64,000 bases of DNA from Actinomycetota bacterium (GTDB taxonomy: Bacteria; Actinomycetota; Nitriliruptoria; Nitriliruptorales; Nitriliruptoraceae). Position 1 is the first letter of the stretch. The number at the start of each line of letters is the position of its first letter. Below, piece after piece: positions 1,975 through 41,253 of this stretch. The stretch is from the NCBI GenBank assembly GCA_019347575.1, contig JAHWKY010000003.1, positions 1 to 64,000 on the forward strand, given 5' to 3'. The translations under genes and the position numbers were made by a program. The notes under the pieces were generated by a model. That model searched no databases. It saw only the letters and a program-made list of their open reading frames with translations, and was not told the origin of the DNA.

Positions 1975-2265
1975 GTGAAGGACCCGCGCGATGTCATCTT
2001 CCGCCCCGTCGTCTCCGAGAAGACGTACGGGCTGCTCGACAACAACAAGTACACCTTCGAGGTCGACCCCCGCGCCAACAAGACCGAGATCAAGATCGCT
2101 GTCGAGAGGATCTTCGGGGTCAAGGTCCTCAACGTGAACACGATGAACCGCCGCGGCAAGCGCAAGCGTCGCGGGTGGGTGGTCGGCCAGCGCAAGGATG
2201 TCAAGCGGGCGATCGTGCAACTCGCCCCGGGTGACGAGATCGAGATCTTCGGCGCTGGGCTGTGA
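1975..2265 (+). CDS. rplW: Ribosomal protein L23 (uL23)
   Basis: 96 residues with the L23 pattern: [20 protein letters not shown] at the start, [17 protein letters not shown], and the basic loop [16 protein letters not shown]23 sits at the exit tunnel and docks trigger factor and SRP. GTG start at 1975 follows a GAGGAGGAG ribosome-binding stretch that lies in the end of rplD. The stop is directly followed by a four-copy hairpin array. Confidence 0.96.
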
Positions 2266-2384
2266 GTGCTCGAGCAGCGAAGCGGTAGCACAGTGAGTGC
2301 TCAAGTAGCGAAGCGGTAGCACAGGTAGTGCTCAAGTAGCGAAGCGGTAGCACAGGTAGTGCTCAAGTAGCGAAGCGGTAGCAC
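2266..2384 (+). repeat. Tandem array of four two-stem repeats before rplB
   Basis: Copies at 2266-2291, 2297-2322, 2328-2353 and 2359-2384, with an exact 31-bp period. Each has outer arms GTGCT/AGCAC, inner GC/GC with loop GAA, and 3' strand GGT. The first copy has CGAGCA in place of CAAGTA. Linkers are only 5 bp. The exact period indicates tandem duplication of element plus linker. The array fills the whole rplW-rplB gap apart from 21 bp that hold the rplB ribosome-binding site (GGGAGGAGG). Confidence 0.9.
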
Positions 2385-2405
2385 AGGTGTAGGGAGGAGG
2401 CGACG

Positions 2406-9196: not shown

Positions 9197-9214
9197 CCGA
9201 CCTACACACAGACA

Positions 9215-9340
9215 GTGCTCAAGTAGCGAAGCGGTAGCACACAGACAGTGCTCAAGTAGCGAAGCGGTAGCACACAGACAGTGCTCAAGTAGCGAAGCGG
9301 TAGCACACAGACAGTGCTCAAGTAGCGGAAGCGGTAGCAC
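9215..9340 (+). repeat. Tandem array of four two-stem repeats before rpsE
   Basis: Copies at 9215-9240, 9248-9273, 9281-9306 and 9314-9340, with an exact 33-bp period and a constant 7-bp linker ACAGACA. Arms are GTGCT/AGCAC, strand CAAGTA, inner GC/GC, 3' strand GGT. The first three have a GAA loop; the last has GGAA, a GNRA tetraloop, and is one base longer. The linker is constant, so this is a tandem repeat and not a CRISPR array. Confidence 0.9.
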
Positions 9341-9367
9341 ACCCATAGAGACAGAAGAGGTTCCAGC

Positions 9368-13945: not shown

Positions 13946-14012
13946 GTGCTCAAGTAGGCCGGAGGCCGGTAGCACAACCGAGAAGCTCAAGTAGGCCGGA
14001 GGCCGGTAGCAC
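13946..14012 (+). repeat. Two two-stem repeats between infA and rpmJ
   Basis: Copy at 13946-13975: arms GTGCT/AGCAC with inner stem GGCC/GGCC, loop GGA. The second, about 13984-14012, keeps the same inner stem but its left outer arm is eroded (AAGCT against AGCAC). A third remnant, CCGAGAAGCTCGG, follows at about 14015-14027. The GGCC inner stem replaces GC or GCCC of other copies with pairing kept. Confidence 0.8.
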
Positions 14013-14054
14013 AACCGAGAAGCTCGGTAGGGGAGCGATACTGAGGAGCGAACC

Positions 14055-16835: not shown

Positions 16836-16868
16836 TCCCGCCCCTCGTTACTTGAGCACCACCCGATC

Positions 16869-16931
16869 GTGCTACCGCTGTCGCTACTTGAGCACCAGCA
16901 GACCGTGCTACCGCTGTCGCTACTTGAGCAC
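16869..16931 (-). repeat. Two (plus a half) reverse two-stem repeats before rplQ
   Basis: On the minus strand, complete copies at 16869-16895 and 16905-16931 (36-bp period) have arms GTGCT/AGCAC, CAAGTA, GC/GC with loop GACA, and GGT. A half copy ending TTGAGCAC lies at about 16846-16859. Loop GACA is otherwise seen only in the copy at 520-548. Orientation is opposite to the operon. Confidence 0.85.
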
Positions 16932-16948
16932 CACCAGGAGGCACGTCC

Positions 16949-38403: not shown

Positions 38404-39306
38404 TCAGCGCAGGTCGCTGGGCTCGTCCAGACGGGAGCCGTCGTCGGCGTAGCGGTACACGCCCCGCCCCACCTTCCGCCCGAGGCGGCCAGCAGCGACC
38501 AGGTTGCGGTGCACGGTCGTGGGGCGGAACCGTTCTCCCAGCGTGTCGGCCAGGTGCTCGAGCACCGCGAGGCGGACGTCGAGGCCCACCAGGTCGGCCA
38601 TCTCCAGAGGCCCCATGGGGTGATTGAGCCCGAGCCGCGCGGCGCGATCGATGTCCTCGGGGCGTGCGACCCCCTCCTCCAGCATGCGGAAGCCCTCGTT
38701 GCCGATGAGCGCGTTCAGACGTGACGTCGCGAAGCCGGGGACGTCCTCGACCCGCACGGTCTGCTTGCCCATCCGCTGAGCGGAGGCTTCGGCTGCGTCC
38801 ATGGTGTCCGTACTGGTCTGCAGACCGCGGATCAGCTCGCACAGCTTCATCTTCGGCACCGGGTTGAAGAAGTGCATGCCGACGCCACGTGAGGGGTCCT
38901 CCAGCGCCGCCACGATCTCGGTGATCGACAGGGCGCTGGTGTTGGTGGCGATCACGGCGTGGTCGGCAGCCGTGGACTCGGCGACGCGGAACACCTCGTG
39001 CTTGACGTCGATGCGCTCCACCACCGCTTCGATGACGAGGCTCGCACCCTCGCAGGCCGTCGCGATGTCCGTGGTCGTCGTCACGCGGTCGGGCACCGCC
39101 GCGGCGTGCTCCGTGGTCACCTTCCCCCGGTCGACACCCGCCTCGAGATCACGCTCGATCGTGCGACGTGCCTGGTCGAGCTGGTCCTGTGACACGTCCG
39201 CGAGCCGGACCTCGGCGTCCGCGACCGCCGCGACGTACGCGATGCCGCGCCCCATCGCGCCGGCGCCGACGATCGCCACCGGGCCGGGCCAGGTGGTGGT
39301 GGTCAT
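38404..39306 (-). CDS. 3-hydroxyacyl-CoA / 3-hydroxybutyryl-CoA dehydrogenase
   Basis: 300 residues. NAD-binding VAIVGAGAMGRGIAYVAAVA; catalytic His and Glu in GVGMHFFNPVPKMKLCELI; C-terminal dimerisation region PGFATSRLNALIGNEGFRML and HPMGPLEMADLVGLDVRLAV. Oxidises 3-hydroxyacyl-CoA in fatty-acid or butyrate metabolism; chain-length preference cannot be read. Its ATG (39306) and G-rich ribosome-binding site lie inside a 65-bp tandem repeat shared with the upstream gene's stop. Confidence 0.93.
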   Translation of the reverse strand: MTTTTWPGPVAIVGAGAMGRGIAYVAAVADAEVRLADVSQDQLDQARRTIERDLEAGVDRGKVTTEHAAAVPDRVTTTTDIATACEGASLVIEAVVERIDVKHEVFRVAESTAADHAVIATNTSALSITEIVAALEDPSRGVGMHFFNPVPKMKLCELIRGLQTSTDTMDAAEASAQRMGKQTVRVEDVPGFATSRLNALIGNEGFRMLEEGVARPEDIDRAARLGLNHPMGPLEMADLVGLDVRLAVLEHLADTLGERFRPTTVHRNLVAAGRLGRKVGRGVYRYADDGSRLDEPSDLR

Positions 39307-39432
39307 GCCTCCCCCCTGGAGGAGGGAGGGGCCGGCGTTGCCGGCCTGGGGGGTGAGGCCTGATGTGTCATGCCTCCCCCCTGGAGGGGGGAGGGGCCGG
39401 CGTTGCCGGCCTGGGGGGTGAGGCCTGATGTG
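39303..39432 (-). repeat. 65-bp tandem repeat (2 copies) carrying start/stop overlaps
   Basis: Copies at 39303-39367 and 39368-39432 differ by one base. Each contains a hairpin GGCCGGC/GCCGGCC and a CCTCCCCC/GGGGGAGG stem. On the minus strand each unit encodes a 22-codon open frame beginning MTHQASPPRP. Its ATG overlaps the preceding stop (ATGA), it has GGGGGAGG near the start, and its TGA overlaps the next ATG. The chain runs from the stop of the upstream membrane protein to the dehydrogenase start. Expression of the tiny frames is unproven. Confidence 0.8.
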
Positions 39433-40353
39433 TCATCCCCGCTCCTGTTCCGTCGCCTCGGAGTCAGCGTAGGCGTGACGTCGGCGACGCCGAGCGGTGA
39501 TGACGAGCGCCGTCGAGGCCAACAGCAGCAGGCCCAGCGCGACGGCGAGCGAGACCCCGCGCTGCCACAGCCACACGGTCGTGGTGAGCTCGACCGCGGC
39601 GTCGGCGATGTCGAGGGCGGCATCCACGCGGTACCCACCGGGGAGCGCCGGAACGTCGAACGGCTGGCGGATCGTGCGAGGTACGCCGGGCAACACGACC
39701 GTCGGCCCGAGCGTGACGTCCACCGCGCGGGTACGCAGCCACGACGTGACCGCGAACCGAGCCGAGGAGACCACCGCTCCTGCCGGCGCGTCCAGGGTGA
39801 CCTCCACGGCCGCGGTGTCGGCACCGGACGGCACCTCGATGTGCGCTCCGACGTCGTCGGATCCGGTCGCGACTCGCACGATCACGGTCGCCGCCACCTC
39901 GACCGCAGGCTCGGTGGCGACGCTCGTAGCCACCACCTGTGCCACGTACCCGCCCGACGCGGTCGCAGGCGGCACCCTCACCGCGAGCGGCAACAGGGCG
40001 CGCTCGCCGGGTCCCAGGTGGAGGGTCGCCGTGGGGAGCTGCAGCCACCGTCCGGCCGAGGGAAGCGCCCCGGCGTCGGCAGGCCGTGGGGCCCCGGCCG
40101 CATCCGCCGCGACGTCCCTCACCGTCAGCGCCAGCTCGAGCCGGAGGTCCCCACCGTTCTCCACATCGAGGTCGAGTCGGCGACTCCGCTGGGGCCCGAG
40201 GTCGACCACGGCGCCAACGGGTGAGATGCGCAGCTCACCGTGCAGCCCACCGTCGTCGTCGACGGCGGCGGGCCCGGGGACCGCCACGCTCGGGGCGGCC
40301 ATGGACATCGACAACAGCATGACGGCGAGCGCGACGGCGCAGCATCGGAACAC
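39433..40353 (-). CDS. Secreted, C-terminally membrane-anchored protein
   Basis: 306 residues from GTG 40353. Signal peptide VFRCCAVALAVMLLSMSMAA; beta-rich extracytoplasmic region with SPVGAVVDLGPQRSRRLDLD and GPGERALLPLAVRVPPATAS (resembling DUF916-type or NPCBM-like beta domains); C-terminal membrane helix VSLAVALGLLLLASTALVIT followed by an RRRRR stop-transfer. Probably presents a beta-sandwich outside the membrane. Function unknown. Divergent from the lipoprotein gene at 40387, with 33 bp between. Confidence 0.75.
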   Translation of the reverse strand: MFRCCAVALAVMLLSMSMAAPSVAVPGPAAVDDDGGLHGELRISPVGAVVDLGPQRSRRLDLDVENGGDLRLELALTVRDVAADAAGAPRPADAGALPSAGRWLQLPTATLHLGPGERALLPLAVRVPPATASGGYVAQVVATSVATEPAVEVAATVIVRVATGSDDVGAHIEVPSGADTAAVEVTLDAPAGAVVSSARFAVTSWLRTRAVDVTLGPTVVLPGVPRTIRQPFDVPALPGGYRVDAALDIADAAVELTTTVWLWQRGVSLAVALGLLLLASTALVITARRRRRHAYADSEATEQERG

Positions 40354-40386
40354 CGCGCGAGCGTAGACCCCACCTACGCTGGGCCC

Positions 40387-41253
40387 GTGCTCACCGATCG
40401 TCGCCCGGCCGCCCTCCTCCTCGTGGTCCTCGCGCTCACCGCGTGCAGTGACCAGGCCGGCTCGGACTCGGACGGCGGCCCCTCCGCGGAGCGCGTCGCC
40501 GCGGTCGCGGCCGCGCGCCAGCAACTCGGACCGCCGGCGGCCGAGCTCGCCTCGGCGGTGACGACCATCGGCAGCAGCCTGCTCGAGGTCTACGCCGACG
40601 GCGACGACCCGAACGAGCGACTGGCGGCGATCGATGGGATCCGTGCGGAGCTCCTGCCCCGCTTGCGTGAGGAGATCGACGGCGCTCGTGACGTCGATCT
40701 CACCGCCGACCCATCCCAGACGGAGGCGATCACGGCCGCCTGGGATGTCCTGATCTCGAACGCCGCCGGCGTCCCGGGTGCCGTGCAGGACGATCTCGAC
40801 CACCTCGAGCGCCTGCTCGAGGCTGAGGTGGCGCTGTTGGAGCTCGCTGAGACGTGGCAGGAGTCGGGCTCGCGCAACGAGCAGATCGCACGCCTCGAGG
40901 CCACGGCTGCGGCGGCAGCCGACCTCGAGACGTCGCTGACACAGCTGCAACAACGGACGGAGTGTTCACGCGCCATCGCGCATCGGTTGGCTGCAGCCCG
41001 CCACGTGAGCGCGGCCTCCACCGAGCTGCGCGACCTCGTCGCCTCGCAACGGGGCAACGAGTTCGACCAGCGACGAGCCGAGCTCGCACAGGATCCGCTC
41101 GGCCTCGGAGCCAGCCTGGCGGACCTCGACGGCGACGACGTGTCGTGCTGGGAGGACGAGTTGCCCACCTCGGTCGCGGTCGGGGCCGTCCTCTCCGCGG
41201 TCGATCGCCTCGAGGCGGCGCTCAACCCGCCCGACGTGACCGATGGGAGCTGA
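40387..41253 (+). CDS. Putative lipoprotein, helical
   Basis: 288 residues from GTG 40387. N-terminus LTDRRPAALLLVVLALTACS is a lipobox signal (LTAC, Cys about 19). The mature part is almost entirely helical with acidic and alanine-rich heptads and two other cysteines (about positions 197 and 253). No family recognised. TACGCT at 40375-40380, seven bases before the GTG, suggests a leaderless transcript. Confidence 0.75.
   Translation: MLTDRRPAALLLVVLALTACSDQAGSDSDGGPSAERVAAVAAARQQLGPPAAELASAVTTIGSSLLEVYADGDDPNERLAAIDGIRAELLPRLREEIDGARDVDLTADPSQTEAITAAWDVLISNAAGVPGAVQDDLDHLERLLEAEVALLELAETWQESGSRNEQIARLEATAAAAADLETSLTQLQQRTECSRAIAHRLAAARHVSAASTELRDLVASQRGNEFDQRRAELAQDPLGLGASLADLDGDDVSCWEDELPTSVAVGAVLSAVDRLEAALNPPDVTDGS

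Follow-up and report, generated by a model that had tools for sequence, protein, structure and literature searches.

A 65-bp tandem repeat ahead of a dehydrogenase gene belongs to a genome-wide family of start-codon-targeting repeats in a Nitriliruptoraceae-like actinobacterium

What are two tandem 65-bp units, each holding a frame of 22 codons, doing between two genes of an actinobacterial genome? The question arises at positions 39302-39436 of the window, by which we mean the whole 64,000-nucleotide stretch of DNA analyzed here. A preliminary description, made from the letters of the window, saw in this tract a chain of coupled micro-ORFs and proposed either a translational relay or a leader-peptide attenuator rich in Pro codons. 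We find that the tract is not a local regulator but one member of a genome-wide repeat family that targets start codons.

The tandem tract and its flanking genes

Tandem Repeats Finder reports a tandem at 39302-39436 with a period of 65, 2.1 copies, and 98% matches, and a repeat search of the window resolved two unit copies (39302-39366 and 39367-39431) with a single mismatch between them. Read on the minus strand, GAG CGG GGA TGA closes the upstream frame, and the ATG within GGATGA (39436) opens the first micro-ORF. The features are as follows.

39433..40953, minus strand: upstream gene (longest open frame), with its stop TGA (39435-39433) overlapping the micro-ORF 1 ATG
39433..39436, minus strand: ATGA junction 1, upstream gene stop and micro-ORF 1 start, from the sequence
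39368..39436, minus strand: unit 1, 22-codon micro-ORF (MTHQASPPRPATPAPPPSRGEA, then stop), covariance-model match of 95.1 bits
39395..39411, minus strand: unit 1 hairpin 1, GGCCGGC AAC GCCGGCC, from folding, with two compensated pairs family-wide
39373..39394, minus strand: unit 1 hairpin 2, CCTCCCCCC TCCA GGGGGGAGG, which pairs the G-rich Shine-Dalgarno-like run preceding the next ATG
39368..39371, minus strand: ATGA junction 2, micro-ORF 1 stop and micro-ORF 2 start, from the sequence
39303..39371, minus strand: unit 2, 22-codon micro-ORF (MTHQASPPRPATPAPPSSRGEA, then stop), from the sequence and the covariance model
39330..39346, minus strand: unit 2 hairpin 1, GGCCGGC AAC GCCGGCC, from folding
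39308..39329, minus strand: unit 2 hairpin 2, CCTCCCTCC TCCA GGGGGGAGG, with one pair turned U-G, from folding
39303..39306, minus strand: ATGA junction 3, micro-ORF 2 stop and dehydrogenase gene start (ATG at 39306), from the sequence
38404..39306, minus strand: downstream gene, 3-hydroxyacyl-CoA dehydrogenase of 300 aa (PF02737, E=2.8e-60; PF00725, E=4.1e-31)

Each of the three junctions around the micro-ORFs is a 4-nt ATGA overlap. The chain of 65-bp units with 22-codon frames had been described correctly, base for base, including its two ends, where the first micro-ORF begins in the stop of the upstream gene and the second ends in the start of the dehydrogenase gene. The accompanying arithmetic, that 65 equals 69 minus 4 so that duplication of a unit spares the coupling, is true across the whole family presented below. 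The true start of the upstream gene is probably further in than that of the longest open frame, and a Pfam search with this frame (at most 506 aa) gave no match. The nearest matches of the dehydrogenase are mostly from Nitriliruptoraceae MAGs; the host lies in or near the Nitriliruptoraceae.

Elsewhere in the window (2265-2388, 9205-9342, 13948-14025, and 16845-16937), there is another tandem palindromic repeat, GCTCAAGTAG n CGGTAGCAC, unrelated to the 65-bp unit, with a 31-37-bp period and set between ribosomal-protein-type genes. Its pattern has 95 exact matches in the genome and contains GTAG, like the GTAG-tagged REPs (PMC3733652); no Y1 transposase was found in the genome.

A dispersed family on start codons

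The preliminary description had suggested looking for the unit next to other genes. A sequence search of the window's own genome (4.89 Mb, 120 contigs) matched the tract at 44 places, which after fetching of the flanks resolved to 40 loci with 1-3 units each, beside unrelated genes; a covariance model counts 64 units at these loci. With 40 loci that share, almost without exception, one architecture, the tract is far beyond chance, and a purely local duplication is ruled out. All copies share one ancestor, so that agreement between units is not independent evidence. The assembly of this genome breaks on the element. Four contigs (C9, C41, C49, and C61; loci L019, L028, L009, and L041) end inside copies of it, and array lengths are therefore lower bounds; three of the 40 loci are cut by contig ends.

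Across units, a core of about 50 bp (TCACCCCCCA-GGCCGGCAACGCCGGCC-CCTCCCCCCTnnAGGGGGGAGG-C) is almost invariant and folds into two hairpins. The first 15 or so nucleotides past RTGA show 45% identity between loci versus 76% within an array, as expected if one unit arrives and then duplicates in place. Outside this genome, sequence and covariance-model searches found no 65-bp unit in 60 relatives, 34 of them of the same family; weak matches in two relatives (G001 and G010) were set aside as chance likeness to part of the core, as they lack the surrounding repeat architecture. A sequence search of 396 genomes drawn from the phylum did not find the unit, and the plasmid and phage collections searched held nothing similar to it. 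A 25-mer of the core has no exact match in 84,980 GTDB species genomes or in viral contigs; these collections may omit the window's own genome. Rfam matches (whalefall-1 and others) scored far under their gathering scores and were rejected. By sequence, then, the element is confined to its own species among the genomes searched, and our literature search found no paper on such repeats in relatives of Nitriliruptor.

The copies share the orientation of the downstream gene, whose start codon is where they end. By Pfam, the downstream genes are unrelated and have no common pathway; their products include NuoJ, NuoG, GatB, aspartate-semialdehyde dehydrogenase, MoaE, PrmA, a UbiA-family protein, a RecD-like helicase, SelA, a beta-ketoacyl synthase, and an ATP sulfurylase/APS kinase, among more. 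An RTGA overlap joins the upstream stop to the first unit's start at 22 of the 37 resolved loci (20 clear, 2 marginal), versus at most 18/58 (31%) of co-directional neighbor pairs in the window (binomial p 3e-4 for 22 and 3e-3 for 20). At loci without an overlapping upstream gene, the first start usually lies behind a Shine-Dalgarno-like sequence (for example, GGAGAGGACGCATG at L014, GGAGGAGGCATG at L019, and GGAGGACCCATG at L020 at 5696), and there the unit appears to have captured the gene's own initiation site. At two loci (L011 around 2312 and L037 around 2009, oriented coordinates) the -10-like hexamer TAGGCT stands upstream of the element's first start codon, separated from it by only a few bases; this may point to leaderless transcripts beginning on the micro-ORF.

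Relatives preserve empty sites. At nuoI-nuoJ, the two genes simply overlap by RTGA (typically GCATGACCGG) in 20 of 24 relatives, nuoJ starting one base ahead of the nuoI stop; the window's genome reads GGGATGACCGATC...GGGATGACCGGCC, where two units put the start 129 nt past the stop, that is, 2 x 65 - 1. The gatA-gatB junction is RTGA or TGATG in 21/29 relatives and measures 64 nt (65 - 1) here. Junctions are also short in most relatives at lysC-asd and nuoF-nuoG, where in the own genome the upstream gene reads into the element. The recurrence and these empty sites together identify the unit as a dispersed element placed exactly on start codons, and the simplest reading of the sequences is insertion on the start codon with duplication of the RTGA. 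Empty sites were seen only at other loci, as the upstream neighbor at the window's own junction is not conserved in relatives; insertion here is deduced from the family.

A longer target-site duplication was considered and ruled against. The first 16 or so nucleotides of the unit match the start of the downstream gene only a little more often than shuffled pairs do (146 matches versus 130 +/- 8, at positions 6-16; 335/10,000 shuffles reach as high), and this excess likeness comes from a few loci, only RTGA being general. The loci that drive it (L022, L024, L025, L030, and L033) may hold remnants of a further unit.

Reading frames, hairpins, and the proposed passage of ribosomes

We traced the frame through the element at 32 loci. 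In 26 of them, the first start reaches the gene by successive stop/start overlaps, as in the L022 chain, which runs from 44 codons to 13 codons to the gene; five read in frame straight into the gene (L023, L025 at 1948, L031, L037, and L039), and one (L025 at 2012) overlaps the gene start by about 8 nt. The genes with a fused element peptide include those for an AMP-binding enzyme (L023), the UbiA-family protein (L025), and SelA (L037). At L016, L040, and L043, the frame of the upstream gene continues into the element and stops at the element's RTGA. Counting stop/start overlaps, in-frame fusions, and these upstream read-ins together, the frame reaches the gene in 34 loci; a clean lead is missing at L025 at 2012, L020 at 1986, and L044, in the last two of which the element is not joined to a gene. 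For annotation, the runs of 22-codon ORFs in this genome are to be regarded as parts of a repeat, and some N- or C-terminal extensions (e.g., of SelA, NuoF, and the lysC product) as derived from it. At one locus (L025:6314-6362, minus strand), the downstream UbiA-family (ctaB-like) gene begins MTDSVSTPQAGAPTRERG, a sequence that looks like the remnant of a further unit fused to the protein.

The core is stop-free in every forward frame and is read in three different frames, PPRPATPAPPPS, TPQAGNAGPSPL, and HPPGRQRRPLPP, at different loci, which argues that the peptide is not the thing kept. This bears directly on the proposed Pro-rich leader peptide that would stall ribosomes to control the downstream gene. 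The commonest frame does encode PPRPATPAPPPSRGEA, with several Pro codons, but other loci use TPQAGNAGPSPL and HPPGRQRRPLPP, some copies are fused to a gene or read into, the downstream genes share no pathway, and the sequence has no T-run terminator after the hairpins. We consider such an attenuator very improbable and abandon it.

We also simulated single-base indels, after which 42% of arrays were still coupled and 34% fused, together about 77%. Against this simulation, the observed frame maintenance has a p of about 0.16; robustness is largely built into the element, so that indel compensation, which we had considered as proof of selection, is weakened and frame maintenance is not by itself such a proof. 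The built-in continuity would fit a more generic reading, in which a REP- or MITE-like palindromic repeat merely prefers RTGA as a DNA target, the micro-ORFs are incidental, and genes use their own starts. GC-rich hairpins and scattered copies would fit this as well, and three stop-free forward frames are not very unlikely at 70% GC. Plain TGA targeting, however, would not give co-orientation and an end at the start codon, and four loci that no upstream gene overlaps (L014, L019, L020 at 5696, and L042) still have the element on a start codon preceded by a Shine-Dalgarno-like sequence. The genome moreover lacks a Y1 (RAYT-type) transposase: Y1_Tnp (PF01797) had no match in it, and control genomes gave matches. 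We regard the generic reading as quite unlikely.

The tract folds more stably than its shuffles (z = -3.5). Hairpin 1 (GGCCGGC AAC GCCGGCC) has modest support from two independent compensated pairs among 30 distinct units, G-C to A-U at L040 and G-C to C-G at L042. In hairpin 2 (CCTCCCCCC n4 GGGGGGAGG), the purine-rich run before the next start is predicted to be paired with a probability of about 1, and the ATG after it to be mostly free. With the G-run paired, we infer that the downstream start would be poorly accessible unless a ribosome has just read the micro-ORF; coupling would then be nearly obligatory. The same structure could suggest a domesticated translation regulator, in which hairpin 2 would pair up the downstream gene's ribosome-binding site and unit number would tune the passage of ribosomes from upstream to downstream gene in operons. 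The stable hairpin across the G-rich run, the compensated pairs of hairpin 1, and a unit number of 1 to 3 depending on locus would agree with this, as would the proposal that MIRU copy number regulates downstream expression (PMC2734929, PMC3599157). We nevertheless judge a regulator unlikely: the genes downstream are unrelated to one another, the same operons are expressed in relatives that lack the element, and in-frame fusion to the gene lets some copies bypass any hairpin-gated start. The relay of the preliminary description is supported in outline, with translation itself presumed; a local regulatory role is not.

Taken together, the sequences make it quite likely that the tract is a non-autonomous, MIRU-like repeat with start codons as its target, which duplicates RTGA on insertion and leaves the gene expressed through termination-reinitiation. 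The 134-bp tract would be a two-unit copy of a small (about 61 bp plus RTGA) non-autonomous interspersed repeat; the element has no terminal inverted repeats, and no partner transposase was identified. It would insert exactly on RTGA start codons, mostly where the upstream stop overlaps, and duplicate the RTGA; the insert is 3n+1 long, giving with the 4-bp duplication 65 = 3n+2. Because of this length and the stop-free core, a ribosome could restart and be relayed through the element. Once done with the upstream gene, it would reinitiate at the first RTGA and translate the element's 22 codons. In doing so it would open hairpin 2, in whose stem the G-rich ribosome-binding-like run is otherwise paired. 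It would then terminate at the second RTGA and begin again on the gene proper. Our analysis demonstrates the sequence, its dispersal and co-orientation, the junctions, the empty sites, and hairpins that can fold; movement, translation, reinitiation, and the opening of hairpin 2 by the ribosome are what we infer from them. Tandem duplication in 65-bp steps would preserve the arrangement, and the peptide would be a by-product; what is kept would be access to the downstream gene, as has been suggested for the MIRUs of mycobacteria. The 40 insertions, some with clear empty sites in relatives, offer a direct test bed for ribosome hand-over.

A bolder proposal, which we regard as rather doubtful, is that the element represents an independent, recently active class of mobile DNA, combining RTGA start targeting with a length-tuned, stop-free, double-hairpin insert that relays ribosomes. 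If so, elements of the MIRU type would be a repeatedly used way of inserting safely into compact operons, and the targeting step might see translation or the mRNA.

Comparison with known systems

The junctions are of the same ATGA type as the gene overlaps for which experiments in Haloferax volcanii and E. coli have demonstrated coupled translation (PMC6728339); those overlaps join two real genes, whereas here a repeat inserts one to three extra micro-ORFs between them. Unlike leader-peptide attenuators, the element has no conserved peptide tied to a pathway. Rickettsia palindromic elements are small palindromic repeats compatible with translation and sometimes fused in frame to unrelated genes (PMC10969869), and the present element shares the compatibility and some in-frame fusions. 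Those elements, however, measure about 150 bp, have a conserved peptide, and lie inside ORFs, whereas ours stands mostly between genes on a start codon and its peptide frame is not conserved, the 5 in-frame N-terminal fusions and 3 upstream read-ins using differing frames. With REPs and BIMEs it shares GC-rich scattered hairpins in tandem clusters, but it differs from those with a RAYT in having a core without the GTAG tag, a tight tie to start codons and orientation, and no Y1 transposase.

MIRUs are widely used for typing tuberculosis strains, and to our knowledge their origin, movement, and effect on translation are poorly understood. They are the closest parallel. PMC12548453, citing Supply et al. 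1997, describes them as short, apparently mobile repeats inserting on start codons, whose internal ORF shows coupling at -4 nt; they measure 40-100 bp and occupy 41 locations in M. tuberculosis H37Rv (PMC2734929). The present family likewise consists of short, often tandem repeats (a 65-bp unit, 64 units, 1-3 per locus) at about 40 loci, sits co-oriented on start codons with an internal ORF overlapping its neighbors by -4 nt, and is inserted relative to related species, which have few bases at the same junction (nuoI-nuoJ, gatA-gatB). It differs in its Nitriliruptoraceae-like rather than Mycobacterium host, in its two strong hairpins, and in having no detectable shared sequence, as judged from the exact 25-mer core search of species genomes and the unit search of the 396 genomes from the phylum. 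By these features the element apparently works like a MIRU, while not being one by descent as far as tested. The same architecture in a distant actinobacterial lineage, with no detectable sequence relation, suggests that start-codon insertion with a coupling micro-ORF arose more than once.
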